Of a stretch of 64,000 nt of DNA, positions 4,466 through 31,819 are shown piece by piece. Origin of the DNA: Oceanospirillaceae bacterium (GTDB lineage Bacteria; Pseudomonadota; Gammaproteobacteria; Pseudomonadales; Balneatricaceae); contig JABGSN010000041.1 of the NCBI GenBank assembly GCA_018647765.1, positions 1 through 64,000 of the forward strand, given 5' to 3'. The notes under the pieces are model-generated. The model was given only the letters and a program-made list of their open reading frames with translations. It did no database searches and was not told the origin of the DNA. Both the position numbers and the translations under genes were made by a program. Positions within the stretch are counted from its first letter, which is position 1, and each line of letters starts with the position of its first letter.

Positions 4466-7027
4466 ATGCTAAAAAGCCAACAACACACTCCCATGATGCA
4501 ACAGTACCTTGGTATTAAGCGCGACCATCCTAACGACCTAGTGTTTTACCGTATGGGTGATTTTTATGAGTTGTTCTATGACGACGCTAAAAGCGCTTCT
4601 GAGTTACTTGATATTTCCCTTACCTCAAGGGGGCAGTCTGCAGGGCAGCCAATCCCTATGTCGGGCATCCCGTATCATGCCGCCGAAGGTTATATTGCCA
4701 AAATTGTAAATGCCGGCCGTTCTGTTGCTGTGGCGGAACAAATCGGCGACCCCACCACCAGCAAAGGCCCCGTAGATCGCAAAGTAGTACGTGTGATTAC
4801 CCCCGGCACCCTCACAGACGAAGCCTTAATGGATGCCCACAGCGAACGTTTGTTGACCGCTGTGTACCAACTAACCGACCAGTACGGCATTGCAAGTTTA
4901 GATATGAGTAGCGGTCGATTTAGCTTACTTGAAGCCACTTCCGTTGATCAATTGCAGACCCAGTTACAACGCTTAAAACCGGCTGAATTATTGTTCGACG
5001 AGGCCAGTGACATGCTCGACCAGATTCAAGACTGGCCCTGCCGCCGCCCACAAGCAACTTGGAATTTTGCCCTAGACACTGCCCAACGGTTGCTGTGTAA
5101 CCAATTTAATACCCGCGATTTGAGCGGCTTTGGCTGTGACGAAATGGCCGCTGCTATCTGTGCTGCGGGCTGTTTACTCAACTATGCCAAAGAGACTCAA
5201 AAAGGCGAGTTGCCTCACTTACGTAACTTGCAAGTTGAACTGGCTCAAGACACCCTAATACTCGATGGCCCAAGCCGAAAAAACCTAGAAATAGATCAAA
5301 ATGTGCAAGGCGGTGACCAATTCACCCTAGCGCAAACCCTTGATTCAACCTCCACCCCCATGGGCGGACGATTACTGCGTCGCTGGCTCAACAATCCATT
5401 ACGTTGCATCAAGACATTACATCAGCGTCAAGATTTTATTGCACAAGCCATAGAAACAGATGTTACCGAGGCGCTGCAACTCGCACTTAAACCCATTGGC
5501 GACATTGAACGCATCTTGCCTCGTATCGCTCTGCGCTCGGCACGCCCACGGGACCTGTCACGTCTCAGCGCAAGCTTGCAAGCTTTACCTCAACTGCAAC
5601 AGCACTTAATCCTGTTAGGCGCTGCCAAATCGGTGTCCTTGGCCAAAAATATCAAACAATTTCCCGAGTTAGTTAAACTCTTAGATCAGGCCATTATCGA
5701 AAATCCACCTGTCATCATCCGCGACGGCGGCGTTATTGCCGAAGGCTATGATGCCGAACTCGATGAACTGCGTGGTTTAAGTCAAAATGCCGGTCAGTTC
5801 TTGCTTGACCTGGAAACACAAGAACGTGAACGCACTGGCTTATCGACCCTTAAGGTGGGTTACAACCGGGTGCATGGTTATTACATTGAAATCAGCAGGT
5901 TACAGTCGGCCCAGGCACCTACAGAATATGTTCGTCGCCAAACATTAAAAAATGCCGAACGCTTCATCACTCCCGAACTCAAAACCTTTGAAGACAAGGC
6001 CCTGAGTAGTAAAAGCCGGTCCTTAGCCAGAGAAAAGGCGCTTTATGAAGCCCTTGTTGAGCAGCTCGCAGGGCACCTAACCGACCTTCAACTTGCGTCA
6101 GACGGCATTAGCGAACTGGATATTCTCGCCTGTCTAGCCGAGCGCGCCATTAACCTAGAATTGGTGCGGCCGCAACTGACCGAACACGCGGGCATCAATA
6201 TAGATAATGGCCGCCACTTGGTTGTGGAACAGTTAATCAGTGAGCCGTTTGTTGCCAATGACTGCTGCCTCTCAGCTAGCCAAAGCATGAAAATCATTAC
6301 TGGGCCAAATATGGGTGGTAAATCCACCTACATGCGCCAAGTGGCGCTGATCGTGATCATGGCTCAAATTGGTTCTTTTGTACCCGCAAAAAATGCCAGC
6401 ATAGGTATTGTAGACCGCATATTCACACGTATGGGCAGCAGTGATGACCTAGCAGGTGGCCGGTCAACCTTTATGGTGGAGATGACGGAAACCGCCAATA
6501 TACTGAATAACGCAACCCATCAAAGCTTAGTACTTATGGATGAAGTAGGTCGTGGCACAAGTACTTTTGACGGCCTTTCGTTAGCCTGGTCCTGTGCCTT
6601 CAATCTAGCCCAAGACATTGCTGCACTGACCTTATTCGCCACTCACTATTTCGAAATGACGCATTTAGTCGACCAGTTGGTTCAAGTAGAGAATGTGCAT
6701 TTAGACGCGACCGAACATGGCGACAGCATTATCTTTATGCATAAAGTATTGCCCGGCCCAGCCAGCCAAAGCTACGGTTTACAAGTGGCTAAATTGGCGG
6801 GTGTGCCGGTCAATGTCATCAATGACGCGCAAACTAAGTTGCAACAACTTGAGATCGATGACGACTCAAGCAAACCCAGTAAATCAGCTGCACCTTTACA
6901 AACAGACTTATTCAGCAGTTTGCCCCATGCCGTAGAAAGCTTGCTGCAAAATAACAATGCCGACGACCTGACACCAAGGCAGGCGCTAGAGCTTATTTAC
7001 CAAATGCAACGAGCCTTAAAGCAATAA
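4466..7027 (+). CDS. mutS: DNA mismatch repair protein MutS
   Basis: MutS recognises base mismatches and small loops in newly replicated DNA and recruits MutL. The 853-residue length equals that of E. coli MutS. The mismatch-wedging Phe-X-Glu is seen in GDFYELF (F33, E35), the Walker A motif is [10 protein letters not shown] near residue 613, and the Walker B and dimer signature is [12 protein letters not shown] near residue 692. The C-terminus keeps the helical tetramerisation region ([17 protein letters not shown]). The upstream ribosome binding site is weak. It converges on rpoS, as often seen in gammaproteobacteria, with only 16 bp between the stops. Confidence 0.98.
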
Positions 7028-7043
7028 CAAGCCGCTGTTAAAA

Positions 7044-7985
7044 CTACAGCTTAGCGGTCAACATGTCGGCGCTATTGAGGCCTTCGGTTTCTAAAATATT
7101 GCGAAGGCTGCGCAATGCACCCAATTGGATCTGCCTAACTCGCTCACGGGTCAGGCCAATTTTTTTACCCACCTGCTCTAGCGTGCATACGGCATGGCCT
7201 CGCAACCCAAAACGCCGACAAATAATGTCTTTTTGCAAGTCTGTGAGGTGATCAAGCCATTGTTCCATGTTAGCCATCAAGTTACTGTCTTCAGCATGAT
7301 ACTCTGGGCCTGGGCTACTTACATCGGCAATGGTATCTAGCAAGGTGCTGTCGTTATCTGGGCCTAGGGTATTGTCAACCGAACTCACGCGATCGTTGAG
7401 GCTGAGCATCGCAGTCACTTGTTTAACGGGCTTGTCAAGAAACTGAGCAATTTCTTCGGCGCTGGGTTCATAGTCTAACTTTTGTGCCAACTGCCGTGCT
7501 GCACGCAAATAAACATTGAGCTCTTTAACAACATGGATCGGTAAACGAATAGTGCGAGTTTGGTTCATAATTGCACGCTCTATGGTTTGGCGTATCCACC
7601 AAGTGCCATAGGTTGAAAATCGAAAGCCTCGTTCTGGATCAAATTTTTCAACCGCGCGAATCAGGCCTAAGTTACCTTCTTCGATTAGGTCTAGCAGCGT
7701 TAAACCGCGATTAAGGTAGCGCCGTGCTATTTTAACCACCAAACGCAGATTGCTTTCAATCATAAGGTGGCGGGCAGGTTCATCACCCTGCAACGCCAAG
7801 CGAGAAAAATACTGCTCTTCTTCTGCCGTCAGTAGGGCGCGAAATCCGATTTCGCCTAAATAAAGCTGCGTCGCATCCTTGAACTGGGTGACCGTGTCAG
7901 ATTTATTGCGTATGCCTTTATAAGCAGCATATTCAACTTCGCTGCGCCTCTGGTGTGCTTGTTCTACCGATAATTCTTGCGTCAT
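7044..7985 (-). CDS. rpoS: RNA polymerase sigma factor RpoS
   Basis: This is the stationary-phase and general-stress sigma factor of RNA polymerase. The 313-residue protein shows sigma-70 region 1.2 near residues 38-70, region 2 ([30 protein letters not shown], then [11 protein letters not shown]), the RpoS-typical [15 protein letters not shown], and region 4.2 with [10 protein letters not shown]. The linkage to nlpD is the classic nlpD-rpoS arrangement, in which the main rpoS promoter often lies inside nlpD. No convincing terminator follows: a small inverted repeat overlaps the stop but lacks a T-run. Confidence 0.97.
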
Positions 7986-8039
7986 TTAACTATCCTATAC
8001 TCATCAAAGTCCTTACTGCGGAGCTTTATGGGCAACTGC

Positions 8040-8855
8040 TTATAGTTTTGGCAAGTACTGTAGTGGATTAACCGGCTTACCATCTTTTCGAATTTCGAAA
8101 TGTAACCGAGGATCCAACTGGGGACCCTTTCCTACCTCTGCAATCACTTGGCCAGCGTTAACCTGGGCACCTTCTGCAACCAAAATTCGGCTGTTATAGG
8201 CGTAAGCACTCAAAAAAGTTTCATTGTGCTTAACTACGACTAAATTGCCGTAACCTTGGATGCCACTACCAGCATATACTATTAATCCACTTGATGCAGC
8301 TTTTATCGAATTTCCGAGACGTGATGAGATCTCAATACCGTGAGATATGACTCCTTTATTGGCAAATTTTTGTACCACCGAGCCTTTTAATGGCCATTGC
8401 CATATGACGGACCCTGTGGCCATTTTTTGCTTATTATTCAATGAATTAATTTTAATATTTGGAATTTTTTTAACAACGGATTTAGTCGTCACTTTCGGCT
8501 TAGAAAGCGATGAAGATATTTTATTATTTTTTTTATTTATATTTGTATTTATTTCACTAAACAGTAACTTTTGCCCCACATAAATGGTGTAAGGCGATGC
8601 GATAGCATTCACTTTTGCCAATTCTTTATAGTCCCAGCCAAACCGCCAGGCGATGGCAAACAGCGTATCGCCACTGCGTACTTGATAGGAGGCTGGAGCG
8701 GAGCGCACACTACTGGCACTGACTGGCTGTGTCGTTAAGCTGTAGCCAAGTTCCTGCACAGGCGCATATTGGCTAGCCCCACAGGCCATTAGAAGCAAGC
8801 CGAATACGCCATAACATAATGCGTGCAACATAGTGGCAGGTGCGTATTTACCCAT
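8040..8855 (-). CDS. nlpD: murein hydrolase activator NlpD (LysM/M23 lipoprotein)
   Basis: NlpD is an outer-membrane lipoprotein that activates the cell-division amidase AmiC. The 271-residue protein has a lipobox LLMAC near residue 25, a LysM domain (YQVRSGDTLFAIAWRFGWDYKEL, about 57-100) that binds peptidoglycan, and a C-terminal M23-type domain. The zinc-ligand motif is degenerate (SHGIEI instead of HxxxD) while HFEIR remains, as expected for an activator without its own catalysis. The linker (about residues 103-145) is rich in Lys, Asn and Ser and AT-rich in DNA. I chose the ATG at 8855; the track starts one TTG codon earlier. It overlaps the end of the DUF368 gene by 8 bp. Confidence 0.93.
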   Translation of the reverse strand: MGKYAPATMLHALCYGVFGLLLMACGASQYAPVQELGYSLTTQPVSASSVRSAPASYQVRSGDTLFAIAWRFGWDYKELAKVNAIASPYTIYVGQKLLFSEINTNINKKNNKISSSLSKPKVTTKSVVKKIPNIKINSLNNKQKMATGSVIWQWPLKGSVVQKFANKGVISHGIEISSRLGNSIKAASSGLIVYAGSGIQGYGNLVVVKHNETFLSAYAYNSRILVAEGAQVNAGQVIAEVGKGPQLDPRLHFEIRKDGKPVNPLQYLPKL

Positions 8856-9834
8856 CAACGTCAGCCTTTAAATCTTGCAACCTAATGCGGCCAAACTTAA
8901 ACACCAGCGCAGCCGCTAACAAAAATACGATCAAACTGGCCATTAGCTGATGCTCTAAACCCGTCATTTGACTATAAGTCCAAGGTAATAGGTTTTCTTG
9001 CTGCAGAGGCACGTCTGCGCCAGAGCTGTTGAGCCGATAAGTGATAGTATGTTTCCAAGGCCACAATTTAACCGCCGAACCAATCATCAAGCCCGTCAAT
9101 AGACTCATTACCGAGGCCATATAATGGTTTAATAGGTAGCTAACTAAGCGGCTAAAGGTGAGTAGCCCTACGCCACAGCCCAAGGCAAAAATAGCAATCA
9201 CTTGTATGTCTAAGGCGGCCAGCCGACCTATTAAATAGGGGTATACGCCAATGATAAGTAAGATAAAACTACCCGAAATACCGGGTAATATCATCGCACT
9301 TATGGCCAAAGCACCGGCGGCCATTAGCCATACATAACCCCAACCAGAAAACCCGTCTACAACGGCCAGGACTGGCATGTTGGCCAGCGATACACTCACA
9401 GCCACACCTAACGAGAGCCACACCAAGCGTAAGCTTTGCTGTGCCAACAACTCTTTGAGTAACAAACCACTAGCCACCAAGATCAAACCTAAAAACAAGC
9501 TCCACATGAGCAGCGGCTGCACCACAAGCAACCAACTAATTAGCTTTGACAACAGCAACAGGCTCACACCAATGCCCAACCCTAGATTAACCAAAAAACT
9601 CGCATCCAGGTGCCGCCACGCCTGTGCAACCTGACCACGAGCTAATAAGTTAGCAAAGGTTAGATCTACGCCACTAATGGCCGCTAACAAGCGGCCGTAT
9701 ATACCACTCAATAAGGCCACTGTGCCGCCAGAGATGCCAGGCACCAAGTCTGCCGCGCCCATCATCATACCGGTAACAATTGTACGCCACTGCCACCAAA
9801 AGTCTTTTTGTTTCATCGTCTTATCATAGTCCAT
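8848..9834 (-). CDS. popT: DUF368 (PopT-type) undecaprenyl phosphate translocase
   Basis: The 328-residue polytopic inner-membrane protein shows the DUF368 signature GAADLVPGISGGTVALLSGIYGRLL near residues 25-50 and an inverted second half-motif, LPGISGSFILLIIGVYPYLI, near residue 183. DUF368 proteins (PopT) have been shown to move undecaprenyl phosphate back across the membrane so that the carrier can be reused for peptidoglycan and O-antigen synthesis. Function here is assigned by family. The gene sits between pcm and nlpD, usually direct neighbours, and overlaps nlpD slightly, suggesting co-expression. An alternative start, MKQKDFWW, lies six codons inside. Confidence 0.85.
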   Translation of the reverse strand: MDYDKTMKQKDFWWQWRTIVTGMMMGAADLVPGISGGTVALLSGIYGRLLAAISGVDLTFANLLARGQVAQAWRHLDASFLVNLGLGIGVSLLLLSKLISWLLVVQPLLMWSLFLGLILVASGLLLKELLAQQSLRLVWLSLGVAVSVSLANMPVLAVVDGFSGWGYVWLMAAGALAISAMILPGISGSFILLIIGVYPYLIGRLAALDIQVIAIFALGCGVGLLTFSRLVSYLLNHYMASVMSLLTGLMIGSAVKLWPWKHTITYRLNSSGADVPLQQENLLPWTYSQMTGLEHQLMASLIVFLLAAALVFKFGRIRLQDLKADVDG

Positions 9835-9845
9835 TAACTAAGTCG

Positions 9846-10535
9846 TCAGCCTATTGTGCCAGTAACCAAAGGCACAAAGTTGGCAGCTTCCACTTTTTGT
9901 TTACTAAAGTGATTGCCCGAGCGGGTGATTTTTACCAAATGTTGCTCATTGTCGCCCACTGGAATAATCATACAACCCCCTTCCGCCAGCTGCCACTGCA
10001 ACGCTTTAGGCACTTGCGACGGTGCCGCCGTTACCATAATACCATCGAAAGGCTCTCTGTCTGGCCAGCCTTCGTAGCCGTCTCCATGGCGGTAAATCAC
10101 GTTGTGGATAGCCATTGCCTCCAGCCGCAGTTTAGCCCTATTTAACAGTGGCTCAATGCGTTCCATAGTAAACAGGCGCGGCACCAGTTGCGCCAAAACA
10201 CAGGTTTGATAACCTGAACCTGTACCCACTTCCAACACCTTTTTAGCGCTGCAAGAGGCGAGCAACAGCTCACTCATACGGGCCACAGTATAGGGCCGTG
10301 ACAAGGTTTGATTGTGACCGATAGGTAAAGACTTGTCTTCGTAGGCCCGATGCGCCAAGGCTTCGTCTAGAAACAAATGCCTAGCGGTGCTGCGCATCAC
10401 TGCCAGCACCCGTGGATCTTGCACACCTAACACTTGCAATTGCTCTACCAAGCGTTCGCGCGTGCGCTGAGAAGTCATGCCTATACCTTGACGACGCGCA
10501 TGTTGGCGCTTAGGATCTGTCACACTGTAGCGCAT
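9846..10535 (-). CDS. pcm: protein-L-isoaspartate O-methyltransferase
   Basis: Pcm methylates L-isoaspartyl residues in damaged proteins with S-adenosylmethionine, starting their repair. The protein shows the family sequence LPIGHNQTLSRPYTVARM near residue 75, the SAM-binding motif VLEVGTGSGYQT near residue 100, and a late DGIMVTAAP. The track ORF (229 residues) starts in a TAATG overlap with the surE stop, which favours translational coupling. An internal ATG at 10478 (MTSQRTRERL) would give 210 residues, closer to the family's usual length. Confidence 0.95.
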   Translation of the reverse strand: MRYSVTDPKRQHARRQGIGMTSQRTRERLVEQLQVLGVQDPRVLAVMRSTARHLFLDEALAHRAYEDKSLPIGHNQTLSRPYTVARMSELLLASCSAKKVLEVGTGSGYQTCVLAQLVPRLFTMERIEPLLNRAKLRLEAMAIHNVIYRHGDGYEGWPDREPFDGIMVTAAPSQVPKALQWQLAEGGCMIIPVGDNEQHLVKITRSGNHFSKQKVEAANFVPLVTGTIG

Positions 10536-11278
10536 TACAAGGTGTCCTGCTGCCAGTCTGCAAGGCCACTAAAGGCATCATAACAAGTCATATCGGGAGT
10601 TAATGGCGTCACCGATACATAGCCGTGCTCGATAGCATGAAAGTCGGTTCCAGGCTCGGCGTTTTTAATCACTCCTACAGGGCCAATCCAATAGCATTGA
10701 TGGCCGCGAGGGTCTTTGGCATCAATGGCGGACGCACCTAACTCTCTCACTCCTAACTTGGTCAATTTTACGCCTTTTATCTGATCGTAAGGCAAGTCTG
10801 GAACGTTGACGTTAATAATACAGCGGGGCGGCAGTTGTAACCCTTGCATACCCTTGACGAGCTGCCGGGCCACTTTTGCAGCGCTCTCAAAATGCTGCTT
10901 ACCCACTAGAGATACCGCCATGGCATGGTGTTTTAAATAGCGCCCTTCCATGGCCGCCGCCACCGTACCGGAATACAACACATCGTCACCTAGGTTGGCG
11001 CCGTGGTTAATGCCCGACACCACCATGTCTGGCGCAATATCGAGCGCGCCATTAATACCTAGGTGCACACAGTCTGCCGGGGTGCCATCAATAGCAAAAA
11101 ACCCGTTGGGTTGAGGCATTATCCGCACGGGACGCGATAGGGTCAGTGAATTACTTGCGCCACTTAGGTCACGATCGGGAGCAACCACGGTAACTTGATG
11201 GTCTAACGCCAGTTGCTTAACCAAGTGAGAAAGGCCAGCTGCCTGCACACCATCGTCGTTTGAAATCAATAATTTCAT
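10535..11278 (-). CDS. surE: 5'/3'-nucleotidase SurE
   Basis: SurE is a metal-dependent phosphatase acting on nucleoside monophosphates and on short polyphosphate. The 247-residue protein begins MKLLISNDDGVQAAGL, with the metal-binding DD pair at residues 8-9, and has the family motifs APDRDLSGASNSLTL and VSGINHGANLGDDVLYSGTV. The stop overlaps the pcm start. The truD-surE-pcm order is the conserved gammaproteobacterial one linked to rpoS. Confidence 0.97.
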   Translation of the reverse strand: MKLLISNDDGVQAAGLSHLVKQLALDHQVTVVAPDRDLSGASNSLTLSRPVRIMPQPNGFFAIDGTPADCVHLGINGALDIAPDMVVSGINHGANLGDDVLYSGTVAAAMEGRYLKHHAMAVSLVGKQHFESAAKVARQLVKGMQGLQLPPRCIINVNVPDLPYDQIKGVKLTKLGVRELGASAIDAKDPRGHQCYWIGPVGVIKNAEPGTDFHAIEHGYVSVTPLTPDMTCYDAFSGLADWQQDTL

Positions 11279-11291
11279 GACCGTATCTCTG

Positions 11292-12365
11292 TTATTGTGT
11301 TTGAGTGATTTCGCGTATTAAGGCGGTTGCATAGCTGCCACGCATCAGATGAAACTTCAATTCTAAAACGTCATCGTCTACCCAGTGCCAACTAAAGTCT
11401 TTGGGCCACAAACGCAAACTACGCCTTTGTGCAGTTAAATCCTGCGCCACCAAAGCCTCAATCCAAGGGGAAAACGGGGCTAATATCTGGTTTTCATAGA
11501 GGCTTGCAGGCGTCACTGGAGGATGACCCACACGCCCTGCCATAGGGCCCGTCGGTGCAAGGTCGCTGACATCAATACGATCTTGAACACCCACCAAATC
11601 AGCACCATCGGCGGCGGCATCAAATTGACTAAACCCGTCGCTAAACATACATCGATCACCAGCAATCGCCTGCAACCAAGAGCTATCTTTAACGCGCTCG
11701 CTGAGCAGTTGATTAAACAGGTAGGACCTTACAGAAGACAGCGCCATACCTCGCTTGAAGCGATCCTTGATGCGCTTACCTTGCAACATCGACAAGGCCA
11801 AGCCAAGGTTACCGCCATGGTGACCAAACCGCTGATCACCAAAGTAATTAGGTGCGCCCTGCTGGGCAATCGTTGCCAATCTGCGTTCAACGCCCTCAGA
11901 GGCACCAATACCACGTAAACGGATACAAAAATAATTACCCTGATGCACCCCTGTTTTGAGTTTACGTAAGTGACGCACGGCTTGGTGTAGATGCACTTGC
12001 GGGGATTGGAGTTGTTCCCAATCAGGATCTACATCTTCTGCCTTGCCGGGTAGGTGAACACCAAACCATTGCCGTGTCACACCTCTACGGTCCTTGAGGC
12101 CTGAGTAATTGACTTGCCGCGCTGGTACGCCAGCTAGTTTGGCGATATTACGGGCCAAAAAGTCGGTATTGGTATCGGTCTTAGTGATATCCAAATACAC
12201 ATGTTCACCCTCACCGCAGGGTTCGAAACCCAGATCTTCGGTCACTAAAAAATCGCTGCAGTGGGTTTTGAGCTGCGCTACTGTTTGTGGTTCGCCATGG
12301 GCATAGGCCCAGGACATGGGCCACGTCAAGGGGACTAAGGGTTGTGTTGATTTGGCATCAGCCAT
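11292..12365 (-). CDS. truD: tRNA pseudouridine(13) synthase TruD
   Basis: TruD converts U13 of tRNA-Glu to pseudouridine. The 357-residue protein contains the catalytic motif NYSGLKDRRGVTRQWFGV near residue 86 with the conserved aspartate. It also has NYFGDQRFGHHGGN near residue 175 and a TRUD insertion domain after it. Its start codon overlaps the ftsB stop by one base. In E. coli and Pseudomonas ispD and ispF separate ftsB from truD; here there is no room for them. Confidence 0.96.
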   Translation of the reverse strand: MADAKSTQPLVPLTWPMSWAYAHGEPQTVAQLKTHCSDFLVTEDLGFEPCGEGEHVYLDITKTDTNTDFLARNIAKLAGVPARQVNYSGLKDRRGVTRQWFGVHLPGKAEDVDPDWEQLQSPQVHLHQAVRHLRKLKTGVHQGNYFCIRLRGIGASEGVERRLATIAQQGAPNYFGDQRFGHHGGNLGLALSMLQGKRIKDRFKRGMALSSVRSYLFNQLLSERVKDSSWLQAIAGDRCMFSDGFSQFDAAADGADLVGVQDRIDVSDLAPTGPMAGRVGHPPVTPASLYENQILAPFSPWIEALVAQDLTAQRRSLRLWPKDFSWHWVDDDVLELKFHLMRGSYATALIREITQTQ

Positions 12366-12643
12366 TACTCTTCTACCAATTGATAAAATGTTTCGTTGGG
12401 CTTAACCATACCCAGATTATAACGCGCTCGTTCTTCGATGGCGGCTATGCCTTGTTTTAAATCTAACACCTCGGCATGGAGCTGTTTGTTACGCTCGGCC
12501 AAGCTGGCGTTAACCGCTTCTTGCGCGCCAATTTGCCGCTGTAGCTGCGCCACCTCGAGCAAACCGGACGGCCCCCACCACAGGCTGTACTGCATCAACA
12601 CTAAAGCAATAAATATTAGACCGACTAACCATTTCATAAGCAT
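12365..12643 (-). CDS. ftsB: cell division protein FtsB
   Basis: FtsB is a small bitopic membrane protein of the FtsQLB complex that controls septal peptidoglycan synthesis. The 92-residue product has one N-terminal membrane segment (about residues 3-22, WLVGLIFIALVLMQYSLWWG) followed by a periplasmic coiled coil (about 30-72) and the family tail ERARYNLGMVKPNETFYQL. The downstream gene truD overlaps it by one base. The eno terminator lies just upstream, so ftsB probably has its own promoter in the short gap or relies on read-through. Confidence 0.95.
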   Translation of the reverse strand: MLMKWLVGLIFIALVLMQYSLWWGPSGLLEVAQLQRQIGAQEAVNASLAERNKQLHAEVLDLKQGIAAIEERARYNLGMVKPNETFYQLVEE

Positions 12644-28774: not shown

Positions 28775-30181
28775 TTAATGACGCATCAAGTCATTAGCGA
28801 TAGCGATGATCGTCACGCTAAACACCAAGGCCATTCCAATACGCAAGCCTACAGCCTGAATTCGATCAGGCACTTTCCGACCGGTAACTAACTCTATGAA
28901 GTAATATAGCAAATGCCCGCCATCGAGCATAGGAACGGGCAATAGATTTAACACCCCTAAGCTCACACTTAAGTAGGCCATAAAACTAATGTAGGTGATC
29001 AAACCCGTCGCGGCGGAAGCTGCAGCGACCTTAGCAATACTAATGGGACCGCTTAAGTGTTCGGTAGACACCACCCCTTGCACCATTCTACCCAGAAAGC
29101 TAAGGGTTAAGCTGACCATTTCTAGGGTTTTTTGACTGCCGTCGATCAACCCTTCAAGCAGGCCTAGTTGCTGCTGATATTGTATGGAGTAAGGCCACGA
29201 AATAGAGGCGACGCCAACGCCAATCTTGCCTATTAATCCACCCGTTTGGTCAACATCACTGTGTAATGTTAACGGCAATATCAATAGCTCGCCGCGACGC
29301 TCCAAAGCCACCAGCACACTCGCATCTGGGTGGCTTTGGACATAGGCCACAAATTCATTAAAACCAGCCATAGACCGTTGGTTAAACGCTATAATTTTGT
29401 CGCCTACTAGCAGCCCCGCGCGTTGCGCAGCACCACCCTCGATCACCCGATCAATAACGATGGGCACATTGGGTCGCCAAGGTTGAATGCCTAACTGTGA
29501 TATAGGGCTTGTTTGCACCGCGTCGGCCAGCCATCGATTAACAGGCACACTGTAGGACACGACAGGGCCTAACAGCGGCAGTTGATCTGACGTATTGGCT
29601 TGTACCGCTTGCTGCTGCAATACGGCGCTATCTAACGGCTGCAACGCCACTTCAATATGGCCAGTTGCACCAATTCGCTTGGCTAAGGCTAAATTGACAG
29701 CCTCCCAGCTTCGTGTAGCCTGCCCATCAATCGAAATAATTTGCTGTACCGGCGTTAGGCCTGCTGTTTGAGCGGGCGAATCTACCAAAACGGGCCCAAT
29801 TACAGGAATCAGCTGAGTGGTGCCCGCCATTTGCACTACAGCATAGAGCAAGGCTGCAAACACTAAGTTGACGATAGGGCCCGCGGCCACAATAGCAATA
29901 CGCACCCATACCTTTTGCTGATCGAAGGCCGCCGCCATCTCATGTTTAGGCACGTCATCATTGCGGGTGTCTAACATGCGCACATAACCACCTAACGGTA
30001 ACCAGGCAAGCACATATTCAGTGCCATCTTGACCGATACGCTGAAATATGGGGCGCCCAAAGCCAACGGAAAAGCGCAGTACTTTGACGCCACTCCAGCG
30101 GGCTACAAAAAAATGCCCCGCTTCATGGATGCTGACTAATACAGCAAGGGCAAATAGTGTGGTTAATATAGTGGTAAGCAT
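28775..30181 (-). CDS. rseP: RIP metalloprotease RseP
   Basis: RseP is an inner-membrane zinc protease that cuts the anti-sigma factor RseA after DegS, releasing sigma-E, and also clears signal peptides. The 468-residue protein has the zinc motif HEAGH near residue 20, two periplasmic PDZ domains (about 125-190 and 235-300), and the C-terminal NLLPVPMLDGGHL motif with the third ligand near residue 415. Only 14 bp separate it from cdsA; dxr, normally between the two, is absent. Confidence 0.97.
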   Translation of the reverse strand: MLTTILTTLFALAVLVSIHEAGHFFVARWSGVKVLRFSVGFGRPIFQRIGQDGTEYVLAWLPLGGYVRMLDTRNDDVPKHEMAAAFDQQKVWVRIAIVAAGPIVNLVFAALLYAVVQMAGTTQLIPVIGPVLVDSPAQTAGLTPVQQIISIDGQATRSWEAVNLALAKRIGATGHIEVALQPLDSAVLQQQAVQANTSDQLPLLGPVVSYSVPVNRWLADAVQTSPISQLGIQPWRPNVPIVIDRVIEGGAAQRAGLLVGDKIIAFNQRSMAGFNEFVAYVQSHPDASVLVALERRGELLILPLTLHSDVDQTGGLIGKIGVGVASISWPYSIQYQQQLGLLEGLIDGSQKTLEMVSLTLSFLGRMVQGVVSTEHLSGPISIAKVAAASAATGLITYISFMAYLSVSLGVLNLLPVPMLDGGHLLYYFIELVTGRKVPDRIQAVGLRIGMALVFSVTIIAIANDLMRH

Positions 30182-30195
30182 TACGCCTCAGGGGT

Positions 30196-31005
30196 TTAAG
30201 TGCCCACTAAAAGAAGGCACAGTGCAAATACGGGTGCTGCAGAAGTGAGACTATCAATGCGGTCCATAATACCGCCATGGCCGGGCAATATAGAGCCGCT
30301 GTCTTTAATGCCGCACTGACGCTTAAACATACTTTCAGTGAGGTCGCCAATCACCGAGGCAAATAATACCACCACAGCCAAAAGATAGATGCTTACGGGC
30401 ATGTCCTTGGCGAAATGTAAGTATGGCTGCACCAAGGCAGACACCAAGAGTACAGTGGCCACCGCGCCACCTACGCCCGCCCACGACTTAGCGGGGCTAA
30501 CCCGAGGCATGAGCTTACGTTTGCCAAAACGTTTACCGGCAAAATAGGCACCGGTATCTGCTCCCCATACCAGCAAAAACAAATACACCATCAGCCACGG
30601 GCCTTGATCCATCTGCCTAATCGACACCATGGCCGCCCACGTAGGCACCAAAATAAACAGCCCGACTAACCCTTTACTAGGAGGCCGACACCAAAGCTTG
30701 GAAAAACGCGGGTACTTTACCACCAGCAGTGTAGCCACCAGCCACCAACCGGCAGCCACAGCAAACACCCATTGCTGGTATTGTGCCATGAGCTTTTGCA
30801 GCACCACAATAGCAAACAATACTGTCAGCACGTACACCGTACGCTGGCTACGACTGACCAACCGCATCATCGCGGTCCATTCCCATGCCCCCATAAGTAC
30901 AACTAGGGCCATAAATAATGCGAACGCTTGGTGCGGCAAAAAAAACACCGCGCCTAAGGTAAGTGGGGCCAGCACCAAGGCTGTAGCAATTCTTGATCTC
31001 AACAT
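30196..31005 (-). CDS. cdsA: phosphatidate cytidylyltransferase
   Basis: CdsA makes CDP-diacylglycerol from phosphatidic acid and CTP, the precursor of all bacterial phospholipids. The 269-residue protein has about eight membrane segments and the family signature VIGDLTESMFKRQCGIKDSG, extended by PGHGGIMDRIDSL near residue 240. Its stop is followed almost at once by rseP, so the four-gene order uppS-cdsA-dxr-rseP known from many gammaproteobacteria is reduced to three genes. Confidence 0.97.
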   Translation of the reverse strand: MLRSRIATALVLAPLTLGAVFFLPHQAFALFMALVVLMGAWEWTAMMRLVSRSQRTVYVLTVLFAIVVLQKLMAQYQQWVFAVAAGWWLVATLLVVKYPRFSKLWCRPPSKGLVGLFILVPTWAAMVSIRQMDQGPWLMVYLFLLVWGADTGAYFAGKRFGKRKLMPRVSPAKSWAGVGGAVATVLLVSALVQPYLHFAKDMPVSIYLLAVVVLFASVIGDLTESMFKRQCGIKDSGSILPGHGGIMDRIDSLTSAAPVFALCLLLVGT

Positions 31006-31048: not shown

Positions 31049-31819
31049 TTAGGCATTCGACTCTTGTTCAGTTAACTGCGCACTTGTTTGGCCAAACCTC
31101 CGTTGTCTTTGACCGAACTCCACAAGTGTATCAACCATCTTTTGGTGCTTAAATTCAGGCCACAAGGCATCGACAAACACAAACTCAGCATACGCCATTT
31201 GCCACAACAAGAAGTTGCTAATGCGCTGCTCACCACTGGTACGAATACATAAATCTACCGCCGGCAAATCACCCAAACTCATGTGCTTACCAAACTTTTC
31301 TTCAGTGATGGCATCGATATCCAAGCCTTGCTGCTGAACTTGGAGCGCCATTTTTTTAACCGTTTCTACAATATCCCATCGGCCGCCGTAGTTGGCTGCA
31401 ATGTTAAGTTGCATACCTGTATTAGCTTGGGTTTTAGTTTCTGCCGATACAATGAGCTTTTGTAACTCTGGACTTAAGCCCTGAATGTTACCAATAATTC
31501 GCAAGCGTATGTTGTTTTCATGAAGCTTATTCACCTCGCGCTTAAGCACGTACACAAATAAGTCCATTAAGGCTTTAACTTCGAGCGGCGGACGCCGCCA
31601 GTTCTCACTACTAAACGCAAATAAGGTGAGCGCAGGGACTTGGTAGTGCACCGCGGTTTCAATCACCGCACGCACTGCATCAACACCCGCCTTATGGCCA
31701 GACACCCCAGACAAACCTTCGCGCTTGGCCCAGCGATTGTTGCCGTCCATAATAATGGCAATATGCTCAGGCAAAGTGTCCAGTTTCTGTGCCAGTATGG
31801 CTTGGCGCGGGTCGGTCAT
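31049..31819 (-). CDS. uppS: undecaprenyl diphosphate synthase
   Basis: UppS extends farnesyl diphosphate with eight isopentenyl diphosphates to C55 undecaprenyl diphosphate, the lipid carrier for cell-wall precursors. The 256-residue protein has the catalytic motif HIAIIMDGNNRWAKREG near residue 20, then HKAGVDAVR, LTLFAFSSENWRRP, and the C-terminal DLCIRTSGEQRISNFLLWQ and FVDALWPEF. Its presence shows that the cell makes isopentenyl diphosphate even though the syntenic MEP genes are missing. It follows frr by 43 bp. Confidence 0.97.
   Translation of the reverse strand: MTDPRQAILAQKLDTLPEHIAIIMDGNNRWAKREGLSGVSGHKAGVDAVRAVIETAVHYQVPALTLFAFSSENWRRPPLEVKALMDLFVYVLKREVNKLHENNIRLRIIGNIQGLSPELQKLIVSAETKTQANTGMQLNIAANYGGRWDIVETVKKMALQVQQQGLDIDAITEEKFGKHMSLGDLPAVDLCIRTSGEQRISNFLLWQMAYAEFVFVDALWPEFKHQKMVDTLVEFGQRQRRFGQTSAQLTEQESNA

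Follow-up and report, generated by a model that had tools for sequence, protein, structure and literature searches.

Probable replacement of the MEP pathway by a mevalonate operon, with a short-loop DXS retained, in a family of marine Gammaproteobacteria

INTRODUCTION

Replacement of the MEP pathway of isoprenoid synthesis by the mevalonate (MVA) pathway is already a known kind of event, with precedents in Coxiella, Legionella, Piscirickettsia and Wenzhouxiangella. The intracellular Gammaproteobacteria Coxiella burnetii and Legionella are reported to carry mevalonate genes and no non-mevalonate genes (PMC9997736, PMC9803151). The metabolic model of Piscirickettsia salmonis uses mevalonate for IPP, has no DXS and predicts a need for thiamin and vitamin B6 (PMC5732189), and the MVA pathway has been reported in Wenzhouxiangella, a free-living gammaproteobacterial genus (PMC7691419). 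Mevalonate genes have also been mentioned as a predator signature (PMC9803151, PMC8560859).

The family described here resembles C. burnetii and Legionella in having MVA genes without MEP genes and, as with Legionella, for which a review finds no recognisable phosphomevalonate kinase (PMK; PMC13001223), no protein of the operon studied here reaches a PMK cut-off; unlike these intracellular bacteria, it consists largely of free-living marine species. Wenzhouxiangella is likewise free-living with MVA, in a separate lineage. The mevalonate route is shared with P. salmonis, in contrast to which the genome studied here keeps both DXS and PdxJ. Our literature search, with most subscription journals outside its scope, returned no report of mevalonate genes in the genera concerned.

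RESULTS AND DISCUSSION

Two gene junctions lacking MEP genes

The window (the whole stretch of 64,000 nucleotides that was analysed) lies on contig 55 of its genome. A sequence-only reading of it had proposed that ispD and ispF are absent between ftsB and truD while the rest of the block remains, and that dxr is absent as well. All of this is borne out by the coordinates below, every gene being on the minus strand. The cell division gene ftsB (12365-12643; NF002058 at 122 bits, over cut-off; PF04977), the upstream neighbour of the missing ispD-ispF, and the tRNA pseudouridine-13 synthase gene truD (11292-12365; NF002153 at 368 bits; TIGR00094 at 177 bits, over cut-off; PF01142) have a single base in common (12365..12365), which can be read directly in the sequence as TAATG (...GAGTAATGGCT). 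Relatives within the order that use MEP have ispD-ispF at this site, and the window sequence has no trace of either gene between ftsB and truD. The block continues with surE (10535-11278; PF01975), pcm (9846-10535; PF01135), nlpD (8040-8858; LysM and Peptidase_M23) and rpoS (7044-7985; Sigma70 regions 2, 3 and 4).

An additional member of this block, which the earlier reading did not mention, is an undecaprenyl-phosphate translocase-like gene in the interval between pcm and nlpD (8848-9834, minus strand; PF04018 at 253 bits).

The gene order given in the sequence-only reading agrees with what we see in other genomes of the same order, where truD adjoins ispF in 27 of 30 IspF loci; in most of the 30, ftsB is found further upstream, beyond a gap of the size of ispD. 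Because ispF and truD are side by side in 27 of these loci, ftsB-(ispD)-ispF-truD can be taken as the norm in the order and, given this order-wide arrangement, the absence of ispD-ispF from the ftsB/truD junction is, as judged from gene order, no matter of chance.

The second junction is that of cdsA (30196-31005; PF01148) and rseP (28775-30181; PF02163 and PDZ). The two genes are separated by a spacer of 14 bp (30182-30195) at the site of the missing dxr, and neither the open reading frames, nor Pfam, nor the sequence itself gives any sign of dxr there. A consumer of IPP, the undecaprenyl diphosphate synthase gene uppS (31049-31819; PF01255 at 274 bits), is retained nearby.

Six MEP genes are missing from the genome

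The assembly (2.49 Mb in 68 contigs) has a completeness of 100% and a contamination of 0.02%. Whole-genome profile searches produced no match to the C-terminal domain of DXR and none to IspE, IspF, IspG or IspH; the same searches were positive in standard control genomes, and those for IspG, IspH and IspE in four MEP users from the order as well. The IspD profile gave two weak matches. One (41 bits) is GlmU, a protein that scores 611 bits with TIGR01173, and the other is a MobA/MocA-like ORF situated beside a 2Fe-2S oxidoreductase-type subunit; a true IspD reaches 206-217 bits in three MEP-using genomes in the same search.

Thus six of the seven MEP genes (dxr, ispD, ispE, ispF, ispG and ispH) are missing genome-wide and only DXS is kept. 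Intact copies of ispD and ispF elsewhere in the genome, which according to the sequence-only reading would mean relocation only, were sought in these searches and neither was found. IspG and IspH were also not found by profile searches in nine other genomes of the family.

A mevalonate operon on another contig

The same genome carries a six-gene mevalonate operon on contig 52 (4947-11352). It starts with genes for HMG-CoA reductase (HMGR; 4947-6029; PF00368 at 275 bits against a cut-off of 27), type 2 IPP isomerase (IDI2; 6026-7057; TIGR02151, 354 against 281) and HMG-CoA synthase (HMGS; 7094-8287; TIGR01835, 505 against 360), followed by two GHMP kinases, GK_A (8284-9348) and GK_B (9341-10345), both with TIGR00549 as the best model, and ends at 11352 with diphosphomevalonate decarboxylase (MDD; TIGR01240, 278 against 171). 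HMGS, IDI2 and MDD thus exceed curated NCBIfam cut-offs. HMGR, which has 6hr7 as its nearest PDB entry, is class I-like: it passes the Pfam cut-off and with TIGR00533 scores 273 bits, under the equivalog cut-off of 442. MDD is not the phosphomevalonate or bisphosphomevalonate variant (NF040704, 122 bits against a cut-off of 475; NF040847, 36 against 560). The six-gene operon has no gene for acetoacetyl-CoA thiolase.

The proposal that the MEP pathway had been lost or replaced is therefore supported, with six MEP genes gone and a mevalonate operon present. The mevalonate genes that the sequence-only reading had listed were found as far as HMGS, HMGR, MDD and an isomerase of type 2 are concerned; for mevalonate kinase and PMK there are two candidate GHMP kinases, which score below the cut-offs for both.

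GK_A and GK_B score 154 and 150 bits with TIGR00549, against a mevalonate kinase cut-off of 163, and in profile searches no operon protein reached the PMK cut-off. The PGK lysine of mevalonate kinases is kept in GK_A; GK_B has S or N at this position. We attempted to pick out the PMK by profiles, by a PDB profile search and by comparison of predicted structures (pLDDT 93), and by each of these both proteins came out closest to mevalonate kinases. A classical pathway would require one of the two to act, by elimination, as phosphomevalonate kinase, and the operon would then expose a PMK of an unrecognised kind.

With PDB entries, the family MDD scores 205 bits for 6e2s and similar entries and 93 bits for 3lto, which we take to be the diphosphomevalonate decarboxylase of Legionella. 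Because MDD is far closer to 6e2s than to 3lto, the acquisition looks independent of that in Legionella.

Distribution in the family and order

The family includes Nitrincola, Marinobacterium, Neptuniibacter and Balneatrix (identified by exact locus matches), and the closest named relatives of the window genome are Oceanospirillaceae MAGs, ASP10-02a among them. In profile searches none of the 117 family genomes (16 genera) had IspF, while 268 of 295 genomes sampled from the order have it. HMGR genes occur in 88 of the 295, and genomes with HMGR and without IspF are confined to the family itself, to family f40 (most of its genomes) and to a single genome, G334, from family f6. The operon order HMGR-IDI2-HMGS-GHMP-GHMP-MDD is identical in 86 loci, the incomplete named loci being cut by contig ends. 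A tree of the concatenated operon enzymes groups most genera, a pattern that fits vertical inheritance. As read from gene content, the replacement of MEP by MVA is old and family-wide and not particular to the window genome. A scan of named genomes for the operon gave only this family and close relatives, with no donor among them.

Outside the family, G334 has the same MVA operon (locus L074), with an HMGR 64% identical to that of the family and a DXS with a short loop. It is likely to have received its operon by transfer, either from one family to the other or from a donor common to both.

The f40 genomes have a different arrangement. One locus (L075:6831-9119, minus strand) encodes a class II HMGR fused to a mevalonate kinase, 762 residues in all, both parts scoring over curated cut-offs, and the other HMGR frames of this family are of similar length. 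Judged by this architecture, f40 represents an independent swap. Three nearly complete f40 genomes (G155, G191 and G367) have PdxJ, and in these DXS, IspE, IspF, IspG and IspH were not found, so that their vitamin B6 synthesis would have to draw DXP from a source other than a recognised DXS.

Alternative explanations of the gene content

Bacterial gene order is variable, and ispD, ispF and dxr might have moved elsewhere with the MEP pathway still running, a reading to which the two weak IspD matches would lend some colour. We regard it as wholly implausible: because the searches of a complete assembly lack all six genes, ispD, ispF and dxr were not relocated, the two IspD matches belong to other proteins, and absences recur in nine further family genomes (IspG and IspH) and in 117 (IspF), so that relocation would need a diverged full set evading six profile searches. 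An artefact of assembly or binning, with MEP genes hidden in gaps and the MVA contig a contaminant, deserves just as little credence. The genome is indeed a draft in 68 contigs, with operon and window on different ones. Against this stand the completeness and contamination values, the fact that both junctions are intact within one contig, and two single-contig genomes of the family (G026 and G072) that show the same pattern of gene content. Contig 52, moreover, matches in GC content (49.6 versus 49.1%) and in tetranucleotide profile (correlation 0.94), and has a syntenic stretch, 85% identical at the DNA level, in another, named MAG; since these three lines agree, it can be considered the organism's own.

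It is harder to dismiss, though still improbable, that the family did not gain the operon at all and that an older ancestor had both pathways, MVA being lost later across most of the order. The 88 order genomes with HMGR speak for such an ancestor. Against it, the family enzyme is just 34-38% identical to the 30 HMGRs compared from elsewhere in the order, the HMGR of f40 is of another kind (fused, class II) and, among the loci read, only G334 has the same operon. We hold with high confidence, from comparative genomics, to the replacement of MEP by MVA, with the gain of an MVA operon, the loss of six MEP genes and the retention of DXS, probably as a side enzyme, in the ancestor of the family.

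Under the favoured scenario, the ancestor of these marine Gammaproteobacteria would have gained the operon and then lost dxr, ispD, ispE, ispF, ispG and ispH, and it is because of this loss that ftsB and truD, and cdsA and rseP, would now abut. IPP would be made from acetyl-CoA by way of HMGS, the class I-like HMGR, the two GHMP kinases (one as mevalonate kinase, the other by elimination as phosphomevalonate kinase) and MDD, with the type 2 isomerase supplying DMAPP. DXS would have been kept as a supplier of DXP, used by PdxJ for vitamin B6 and probably also in thiamin synthesis. Relieved of its MEP duty, it may have shed a flexible, catalytically dispensable loop of 30-40 residues.

A whole family of common marine Gammaproteobacteria would have exchanged one essential pathway for another, cleanly and long ago, beyond the usual intracellular examples. 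The MEP pathway should then not be presumed in Gammaproteobacteria, which would affect metabolic models, isotope biomarkers and the use of MEP-targeted drugs; the family is predicted to resist fosmidomycin and might be sensitive to statins.

A short loop in the retained DXS

DXS is kept in all ten family genomes examined and in G334. In the window genome dxs sits in an xseB-ispA-dxs cluster, and its product scores 688 bits with TIGR00204 (cut-off 466), with conserved blocks that align with those of MEP-using relatives. This genome also has PdxJ, an enzyme that draws on DXP to make vitamin B6. The likeliest reading is that DXS in the MVA lineage is a vitamin-only enzyme, with mevalonate serving for isoprenoids.

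The loop that runs from NDNDMSI to the next conserved stretch has 22 residues in the window genome and 18-30 in all 11 MVA-lineage DXS read, versus 56-57 in the enzymes of three order members that use MEP; most of the other DXS read have 49-66. By these alignments the deficit is about 30-40 residues. The top PDB matches of the window-genome DXS are two loop-deleted constructs, 8a29 (P. aeruginosa) and 8a8y (K. pneumoniae), in which the loop was replaced by six glycines for crystallography (PMC10504544). The same loop is missing in both cases, engineered in the constructs and natural in every family member read. The PRK12315 (NF008968) subfamily of 582 aa likewise consists of short DXS; the window DXS scores 458 bits with this model (cut-off 510), below its score with the general dxs model. 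In the best DXS tree G334 is grouped with its MEP-using family relative, and because of this placement two losses of the loop are implied; independent losses are thus favoured by the tree over one, with a single loss common to the family and G334 not rejected (AU p 0.153).

Two readings of this deficit have to be weighed. It is possible, and we put it forward tentatively, that after a swap of MEP for MVA with DXS kept for vitamins, DXS repeatedly loses its loop, the loop being a part of the enzyme with an MEP-specific duty. If so, the loop would serve, for example, in flux control or in handing DXP over to DXR, and from a missing loop one could tell in a genome that DXS is vitamin-only. The other reading is neutral drift, unrelated to the loss of MEP genes, of a poorly conserved and dispensable segment, and we consider it to have close to an even chance. 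It gains from the finding that the loop has very low conservation and does not shape the active site, and that the loop-deleted P. aeruginosa enzyme has similar, near-native kinetics, the loop not being needed for activity (PMC10504544). The single loss that the tree leaves open favours drift as well. What drift does not readily accommodate is the split between the long loops of the three MEP-using order members and the short ones of all 11 MVA-lineage enzymes, the two losses in the best tree, and the size of plasmid-borne DXS, of which 34 in a spread of 40 records are full length by match size (the remaining six are clearly short). The link between the loop and MEP duty is so far only a correlation. 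Either way, the family offers a natural experiment on what this non-catalytic segment does in DXS, which is a target for antibiotics.

Short loops (24-30 residues) are also present elsewhere, in plasmid copies of Lactobacillus, Bacteroides and Paraburkholderia and in Listeria, which has both isoprenoid pathways (PMC3847144). Since Listeria and plasmid DXS are short-looped too, a short loop does not strictly mark the loss of MEP genes. The plasmid DXS of Lactobacillus amylolyticus, with a loop of 24 residues, is short like the family enzymes. Loops of 24 residues were likewise observed in the plasmid DXS of Paraburkholderia caribensis (L199) and Bacteroides finegoldii (L201), which are probably second copies; such plasmid copies suggest that short-loop DXS may serve non-MEP roles more widely.
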